64,000 nucleotides of DNA, from assembly GCA_017465405.1 (NCBI GenBank), contig JAFTWG010000017.1, positions 1 to 64,000 on the forward strand, written 5' to 3'. The DNA is from Alphaproteobacteria bacterium (lineage in GTDB: Bacteria > Pseudomonadota > Alphaproteobacteria > RF32 > CAG-239). Numbering within the stretch: position 1 is the stretch's first letter; the number at the start of each line of letters is the position of its first letter. This document shows positions 26,090-29,371 of this stretch, piece by piece. Under the pieces are notes generated by a model. It was not told where the DNA came from. It searched no databases and saw only the letters and a program-made list of their open reading frames with translations. The position numbers and the translations under genes are program-made.

Positions 26090-26194
26090 AATATAATGAT
26101 GATTGTAAGAAGTATAAAAAGGTAATGGAGTTATTTTAATTAGAATGTTGATTTTTGTTGAAATTTTAAACTATTAGTGGTATGAGTATATTCA

Positions 26195-26207: not shown

Positions 26208-26235
26208 GTACTTTTGGGAAAACAAGGAGAAATAT

Positions 26236-29200
26236 ATGAGTAAAAAATTTTCATTTATGGCAGCTCTTTTGTTAGGTACCATCTTATCAACTACGGCTAG
26301 CGCTGAAACAGAACGTACAGGTTTAGTGCTTAATGACGGAAGTGTGATAGATAGCTTATCAAAAGATATGAATGATAATGAAGTTTTAGAAACGGTAGCT
26401 AACGAAACAATTTTGGGTGGTGCTGTTTTTATTACTGAACCTTCATTTGGTACCATAAACAGCATTACTGCAAATTTTAGTAATAACTATGTTCATAGTA
26501 ATGCTCAGGCAGCGGGGGGGTGCTATTGCTAACAGTGGTGGAACAATAGGTGTTATTGATTCTGTATTTAATGGAAATATTGCAAAAGTTAGTTATGATG
26601 CAACAAACGGTGCCCCTTCAAATGCTTCTTCTGGTGGTGGCGCTATATATAATAGCGGTATTATTGAAGAAATCAAAGGTAGTTTTGAAAATAACCAAGC
26701 CAATATTAAAGTTGCAGAAATACAAACTGTAATGGGTATGGGTGGTGCTATATGGAATAATGGTACACTCGGTGACGTATCAGCCGATTTTAAAAACAAC
26801 TCAACTAATGCCGGATCTGTAAATCTTAATAATGAAAATGTATCTATAGCATTAGGTCTTGGTGGTGCTTTGGTAAATACTGCTACTATGGGGAATGTGA
26901 CAGGTAACTATGACAATAATAAAGTTACCGGAACAATAGGAGCTGCTATAGGTGGTGCACTTACTAATACCGGAGTTATGGATACTTCTAATATAGGTGT
27001 GTTGGGAATTGCCGGAACTATTGATGGAAAATATACCAACAACAGAGCTACTGTAACTGCAGGTGCTGCTGCCGGTGGTGCTATCGGAAACTTGTTGGGT
27101 ACAAATGATGCAATCTCAGGCATATATGAAAAGAACAGAACTGTTGCAAATGCCGGTTTAGCTATAGGTGGTGCTGTTGGTATTGTTGCCGGAAAAACCG
27201 GAGATATTACAGGTGAATATAAATCAAACTATACAAATGCGACTCTAGGGTTAGCAGCAGGTGGTGCTATTGCAAATGCTTTGGGTAATGTCGGAAATAT
27301 AGATGGTACTTTCGAAGATAATAGTGTTACCGCAGAAGTAGGTGTTGCTTTTGGTGGTGCATTCGCAAGCATTGGTACTCAAGGCGATATAAATGCAACC
27401 TTTACAAAAAATAAGGTAAAGGCAAGTCTTGGTTTAGGTGGTGCTGTTGCTTTTGTCGGGCTTGATATTGACTTGCCGGAAGATGCAGAGGTTCCCGCTC
27501 AAATAGGATTGCCAAAAGCTACAAAAATTACTGCTGATTTCAATGGTAATACCGTAGAAGCTTATGCAGAAGGATTGTCAAACTTGATTTCCGGAATGCC
27601 TGAAAATGGTATTGCTGTCGGTGGTGCTGCCGCATTCATCGGATTAGCTGAATATGGAAAAGAAATAACCCCTGTAGAATTTGTTAACTCTAATTTCTAC
27701 GATAATAAGGCTTTTTCTGATGGTGGAAACGCATGGGGTGGTGCTCTTTTCGGAAATGCCATAAAGGTAACAGCTGACGGAAAAGACAGTATATTTAAAA
27801 ACAATACTGCAAATGGACGTAAGAGCGCAATTTATTTGCAAGGTATCGATTTTCTTAACAGTTTAATCGGAGAACAAACATTCTCTGAAGATGCTTTTGT
27901 TACTTTCACTGCTCAAAATGGCGGCAATGTAATTCTTTATGATGGTATCAGTGGTAATAACTATGCCGTTAATATTGAAGGTGATGGTAGCGGTGAAGTT
28001 GTATTTTATGATGAAATAGATAATGCGGAATATGTAAACATAAAATCTAACGCTAAAGCTCGTTTGGGTAAAAATGCAGTTGTTAAAACATCCAATTATA
28101 GTTCTGAAAACGGTACTTTGACTTTGGATATAGAAATTGATGGTAAAGGAAAAGCTATTCAAAACGCTATTATCACTTCTGATGGCGATATCGTCGGTAA
28201 TACAAATGTTATCGTTAATTCTGAAAACAGAGAAGTCTATGATAATGCGTCAACTATCTTTGTTAAAGCCGAATCGGATGATATGGCAACAGAATCCAGT
28301 TTTGAAGTATCTCGTGTAATCGGTAGTCCTTATATGTGGAAGGCTGAATTAAACTATGGTGGTGAAACAGAAGGTTCTACTTGGTATTTGGTTATGGACG
28401 ATAAACAAAATGAAGAATTTGGTTTTACGCCTGAAGCTATAGCAAGTATCGGATTGCCTTCAGCAGCAATCGCTCAAACCAGTGGTATGGTTTACAATAT
28501 TATGCGTAAAGTAAATATGAATAGACTATATTGTCCGGGTTGCGGTTTATATGATTATAACTGGGATGGCAAACCATTGCACAATGTTTGGGTTGATACC
28601 ACATACAATGGTTTAAAAATTGATGCTCCGGTAGAAATAGATGTTGATGTATGGGGTGTTGAAGCCGGTGGTGATATTCAATATGATTTGAATAATAAAC
28701 TTGGTGTATTTGTATCATACCGTCAAGGTAATTACGAAATGGATGGTAGTGGCGATAAAATTTTCTCAAGAATCGGTTCTGAACTTGATATCGACAGCTA
28801 TTTAGCCGGTTTGTATTATCGTTATGACAAAAACAACTGGTATGTTTTTGCAACCTTGTATGGTGGTATGCAAAATGCTGAAGCTACTACTGGTGACGGA
28901 CTTGGAAACTATGATACCGATGGTATTGAGTTAGGTGGAAGTGCTGAATTTGGTTATGGTTATGCCGTTAGCAAGACTTTGTCATTAACTCCAAGTTTAG
29001 GTTTATTCTACTCTCAAGTTAATTATGATGATGCAACAGATAATTTGGGCAAAACAGTAGAATATGACGACCTGAAGCAAGTTGAGTTGGAAGCCGGAGT
29101 AAAAGTTGCTCATACTCAATATACCGATGATGGATTTTACTCTCTGTATGTAAAACCGAGTGTTGTCCAAACACTTACAGATGGAGATGAAATAAATATT

Positions 29201-29371
29201 ACCGGTGTGGGTGAAGTTGATACTCTCGAAGATAAAACTTTGGCTCGTGTTGAAATCGGAGGTAACTATGGTTTCAATGACAACTGGTCTGTATATGGTT
29301 GGGCTAATTACACATTTGGTTCTGACTATAAGGCTACCTCTCTCGGTGCCGGTGTAAACTACAGTTGGTAA
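26236..29371 (+). CDS. Autotransporter adhesin, frameshifted at a G7 tract in this sequence
   Basis: The ATG at 26236 follows AAGGAGA and encodes a signal peptide (MSKKFSFMAALLLGT, cleaving near ASA-ETE) and about 94 residues before stopping at 26532. The rest of the protein continues in the +1 frame from the G7 tract at 26514-26520; with six Gs the two frames would join (AAGGAIANSGG) into about 1044 residues. The passenger is made of repeats of about 33 residues, each with GGA, then a Gly/Asn turn, typical of beta-helix adhesins. The C-terminal 260 residues form an autotransporter barrel ending in VNYSW. As sequenced the full-length protein is off. Either this is a phase-variable locus or the assembly has one extra G. 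Confidence 0.85.
26514..26520 (+). repeat. G7 homopolymer at the autotransporter frame junction
   Basis: Seven consecutive Gs in a roughly 34% GC genome. Removing one G restores a continuous frame from signal peptide to barrel. Poly-G slipped-strand mispairing is an established on/off switch for surface proteins in several Gram-negative bacteria. Confidence 0.85.

Follow-up and report, generated by a model that had tools for sequence, protein, structure and literature searches.

A frame-setting G7 tract as a possible switch in an alphaproteobacterial autotransporter gene, and apparent invertible promoters upstream of its paralogs

In the alphaproteobacterial DNA analyzed here, a stretch of 64,000 nucleotides referred to as the window, the locus at 26236-29371 is best read as one real type V (classical) autotransporter gene composed of a signal peptide, a Gly-Gly-Ala/Asn-rich repeat passenger and a C-terminal beta-barrel. 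In the consensus sequence, a run of seven Gs separates the signal-peptide frame from the barrel frame, which is shifted by one base, and this allele therefore cannot make an exported protein. We give a probability of about 45% to the reading that the locus works as a poly-G ON/OFF switch with a low rate, for which we infer an origin by slippage, reversibility and any selection. Apparent invertible promoters upstream of several paralogs are a better lead, and stronger evidence of phase variation, than the G7 of the window gene. The layout of the locus is as follows.

26158..26186, + strand: promoter-like pair TTGAAA-17 bp-TATGAG, found by eye, weak and absent from a stricter consensus scan
26224..26229, + strand: ribosome-binding site AAGGAG, read from the sequence, 6 bp ahead of the ATG at 26236
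26236..26532, + strand: signal peptide with the first repeat (98 aa), forming the 5' end of the autotransporter gene and closed by a stop that results from the offset at the G7
26489..29371, + strand: uninterrupted passenger and barrel frame of 960 aa, one base out of register with the signal-peptide frame and meaningful from about 26516
26514..26520, + strand: G7 tract at the frame break, the only G run of at least six in the gene
28631..29299, + strand: autotransporter beta-barrel (PF03797, 98.9 bits against a cut-off of 26)

The protein read from the ATG at 26236 begins with MSKKFSFMAALLLGTILSTTASA, has a Sec-type signal peptide as judged by eye and continues into the first part of the Gly-Gly-Ala/Asn-rich repeat before its frame closes at the stop codon 26530-26532. 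Downstream, the passenger and barrel frame runs for 960 codons without a stop or a second frameshift, and no further damage was seen over 2.9 kb. The third reading frame is open neither before nor after the G7. The C-terminal beta-barrel of a classical (type Va) autotransporter is also matched by TIGR01414, which covers more sequence than PF03797 (98.2 bits, cut-off 16), while the signal peptide does not share one frame with passenger and barrel in the consensus owing to the one-base offset. An earlier note, prepared from the sequence alone, had described two offset frames around the G7 and an intact downstream frame of about 960 codons. Both were confirmed here: the first frame, starting at ATG 26236, has 98 codons before its stop, and the second stays open to 29371, ending in the Pfam Autotransporter barrel. 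The continuation of the repeat pattern across the tract was likewise recovered, with the GGA-x-x-N style present on both sides of the G7 and the motif GGAxx...I..I.A.F.NN visible in both pieces, though BLASTP of the piece before the G7 against the piece after it gave a weak match (E 0.02).

As the break lies exactly at the sole G run of at least six in the gene and is followed by 2.9 kb of undamaged sequence, slippage is the likeliest origin of the change, which is young. The other family members examined are open through the region equivalent to the break. In the proposed mechanism, the majority allele in the sequenced population would have arisen by one-base slippage in this run, translation in the slipped frame would end after 98 aa without a barrel (OFF), and the same slippage may restore the frame, given a homopolymer as the site of the change and an undamaged gene elsewhere. 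In common with poly-G contingency genes, the locus has a tract of at least seven Gs within the gene whose length sets the frame (G7, 26514-26520); the tract is neither kept in the covered parts of the family genes of relatives nor clearly above a codon-based estimate. Seven Gs is the cut-off of a published Campylobacter poly-G screen, so that the window tract sits exactly at the minimum, and tracts of eight or more Gs are those shown to switch in Campylobacter (PMC6321876), which counts against a dedicated switch.

The G7 stands out in the real genome, although by base composition alone such a tract is unremarkable. The genome (1.64 Mb in 33 contigs) contains 47 tracts of at least six Gs, comprising 42 G6, three G7, one G10 and one G13. 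On the other side, a G7 was present in 72 of 100 dinucleotide shuffles of the 64-kb window. The earlier description of the G7 as striking in this genome was thus upheld by the scarcity of longer runs (five of at least G7 in 1.64 Mb) and undercut by the shuffles and by the expectation within the family. This expectation follows from codon choice: the autotransporter family contains 150 Gly-Gly-Ala motifs and uses GGG for 4.5% of its Gly codons, so that about one G6 or G7 is expected. Two of the three G7 tracts lie inside autotransporter genes, for which the probability is ~0.3-0.7% if the family makes up 3-5% of the genome (0.67% was computed for the upper estimate of this share), and one of the five tracts of at least G7 lies in a cytoplasmic-looking coding gene. 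The third G7 is at C27:13063. Since the family is rich in Gly-Gly-Ala motifs, the enrichment of G7 in autotransporter genes is weak evidence. The second autotransporter with a G7 (L037:4387-4393, G000:C26) has the tract in frame at a Gly-Gly-Ala motif and is open over 784 aa; its G7 is equally explicable by chance.

The genome encodes roughly 18 members of the autotransporter family, which was matched at E<=1e-60 in all but one of 12 same-genus genomes. No ortholog of the window gene was found in 13 same-genus genomes, and its neighbors are conserved, with the protease-like flanking gene found in 13/13 and fabG in 12/13. Among the relatives, G001 alone has an autotransporter next to fabG, with a different N-terminus and no tract. 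The comparison of the tract with related genomes, suggested in the earlier note, gave a negative result, as no run of at least seven Gs was present in the covered parts of ~27 same-genus autotransporter loci, a partial test given that many of these loci are cut at the 5' end. A genus-wide poly-G contingency system was also considered and rejected, since most tracts of at least eight Gs in relatives fall between genes or inside housekeeping genes. A second copy of the window locus was not found in viral contigs by either pattern or protein scans; the scan of the genome contigs likewise revealed none and gave one relative. Short 3'-only pieces of family sequence were considered as silent cassettes and rejected, as they are cut by contig ends. 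Most contig breaks of G000 fall in near-identical autotransporter blocks with shared passenger starts and barrels (e.g., L042/L054 and L043/L044). From its sequences, the family appears to be a mosaic whose members may recombine with one another.

The main competitor of the switch reading is a recent unselected frameshift, in which the run slipped once and the allele spread through drift or through the cost of the antigen, leaving a young pseudogene that could still revert without this having a function. We regard this as quite plausible, at odds clearly below even. The tract is short, the origin of such a G run is at chance level, relatives have no tract and the family is redundant at about 18 members; moreover, inactivation of the Campylobacter autotransporter gene capC has been attributed to lineage-specific decay and not to tract length (PMC7168839). 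Against a mere loss stand the 2.9 kb without added damage, the position of the break precisely at the only G run of the gene, and other surface genes of the genome that seem to be under switching control; with apparent invertible promoters at sister autotransporters, the family looks as if it is switched by other means too. The intact downstream frame had been taken in the earlier note to speak against decay, an argument that did not hold, as it shows only that the frameshift is young. The offset frames, the G7, the intact remainder of the gene and the probable short-read type of the assembly support the interpretation of the earlier note in part; switching itself is no more than a candidate, given one tract in one consensus and a G run at about chance frequency.

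An artefact of sequencing or assembly, with a true tract one base shorter and a gene that is always ON, is improbable by comparison. The sequence is a single MAG consensus, which leaves room for such an error. However, contig tips in repeated family sequence share exact 141-bp overlaps in three pairs (C22/C32, C2/C4 and C8/C11), from which we infer that a de Bruijn assembler was probably used at k=141 on short reads, and data of this type seldom miscount a G7. Two far longer runs (G10 and G13) were also assembled, and no indel was seen in any other family member examined. The alternative of one extra base in the assembly, already raised in the earlier note, was therefore deemed unlikely and kept at low weight. 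Least probable by far is that the G7 serves as a site of recoding or transcriptional slippage through which the broken gene still yields some full-length protein. That polymerases slip on homopolymers is well established; here, however, the downstream frame needs a +1 shift or a transcript one base short, the -1 frame, into which ribosomes usually slip on runs of this kind, is closed, and no tract was conserved in the covered parts of family genes in relatives.

Two longer G runs of the genome lie ahead of genes and, like the two G7 tracts in autotransporter genes, count in favor of the switch reading. A G13 (L036:1348-1360, G000:C6) separates TTGACT from TAGAAA immediately ahead of the gene for a secreted repeat protein, which is truncated by the contig end. 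Judged from this arrangement, the length of the G13 spacer could tune the promoter, making it a possible promoter-spacer switch. A paralog of this secreted repeat protein with 64% identity (L164) lacks the G13 tract. The G10 (L035:3238-3247, G000:C1:6237) lies ahead of a family-2 glycosyltransferase gene. It shares a common flank, TTGAAAATCTA, with a G10 at an unrelated gene of another genome (L099, G010:C15:2463), and this 13-mer together with GG occurs only in these two places in 13 genomes. No known RNA element was matched in Rfam near the G10 or G13.

Upstream of five other autotransporter genes of the family, a common unit of exactly 79 bp was found between inverted repeats, bounded by TGTACATTTATTT and AAATAAATGTACG. 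The positions of the five units are given below, together with those of three serine recombinases for which the Mpi master DNA invertase family was the top match in NCBIfam.

G000:C3:2262-2340, - strand: 79-bp unit between inverted repeats upstream of autotransporter gene L045
C3:39390-39468, + strand: 79-bp unit between inverted repeats upstream of autotransporter gene L046
C27:45195-45273, + strand: 79-bp unit between inverted repeats upstream of autotransporter gene L048
C19:2405-2483, - strand: 79-bp unit between inverted repeats upstream of autotransporter gene L050
C26:207595-207673, + strand: 79-bp unit between inverted repeats upstream of autotransporter gene L052
L177:1465-2097, + strand: serine recombinase, best match Mpi family
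L178:1330-1956, - strand: serine recombinase, best match Mpi family
L179:1465-2094, + strand: serine recombinase, best match Mpi family

The inner 53 bp of the units match directly among L045, L050 and L052 and between L046 and L048, but between these two groups they match as the reverse complement only, above all shuffle maxima. Both orientations are therefore represented between paralogs (three one way and two the other) and not within one locus, with no single locus seen in both. Among 13 genomes, the 79-bp pattern was detected in this genome only, and the reversed control gave zero matches. Crossover-like sites are provided by dyads of ~28 bp, TTCC-AAAWAAACG-TA/AT-CGTTTATTT-GGAA, centered at -111 and -38. 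From this organization, the 79-bp units are apparent invertible promoters. Similar dyad pairs precede the surface genes L049 (-140/-34) and L164 (-158/-51), and one pair precedes an autotransporter of another species of the genus (L081 in G009; -113/-40), again 73 bp apart. The Mpi-type recombinases, each of ~200 aa, are putative candidates for acting on the dyad sites; they scored 284.7, 266.6 and 257.5 bits, and one of them passes the cut-off of 272. Control of the window gene itself by an invertible promoter was rejected, with no matching inverted repeat or dyad site found at the gene.

In Neisseria, poly-G/C contingency genes vary surface proteins by poly-G frame switching and by variation of promoter spacers. 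The genome studied here is similar in having poly-G at surface genes both in a coding frame and in a promoter-like spacer, but Neisseria has longer tracts and many of them in each genome, compared with five of at least G7 here, including the one in a cytoplasmic-looking coding gene. In Campylobacter, the autotransporter genes capC and capD carry poly-G in the promoter region and in the coding sequence, respectively (PMC7168839). The window gene resembles capD in that a G run within its coding sequence sets the frame; the promoter-type G13 ahead of another surface gene (L036) resembles capC. Unlike Campylobacter, where tracts are mostly G9-G10 and conserved in position across the genus (PMC6321876, PMC7168839), the present case is a G7 in one gene of an alphaproteobacterium with no conservation found. 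The Campylobacter analogy drawn in the earlier note is thus apt with regard to capC and capD as poly-G autotransporters, and is weakened by the lineage decay to which capC inactivation was traced.

For the paralogs, and not for the window gene, the closer likeness is to Bacteroides fragilis, in which seven polysaccharide promoters are among the 13 regions inverted by Mpi (PMC4747536). The genome shares with this system short promoter segments that are flanked by inverted repeats at several surface loci, as well as serine recombinases with the Mpi family as their best NCBIfam match. It differs in being that of an alphaproteobacterium, in having autotransporters in place of capsule operons and in that the link between recombinase and site is putative. 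A read-based survey from 2018 reported inversions in 0/4 alphaproteobacteria examined (PMC5903667).

On its own, the G7 gene is a modest candidate for a known mechanism, one that has received little study in this group. Its larger import is that it led to the apparent invertible promoters ahead of several autotransporters and to the Mpi-type recombinases. If real, these promoters would let uncultured gut bacteria of this group vary their surface much as Bacteroides does. A layered surface-switching program in this gut-type alphaproteobacterium is possible, though at less than even odds: it would combine ~18 mosaic autotransporters, several of them with promoters invertible by serine recombinases at a common ~28-bp dyad, with poly-G slippage at the window gene, at the gene with the G13 promoter spacer and in the leader of the G10 glycosyltransferase.
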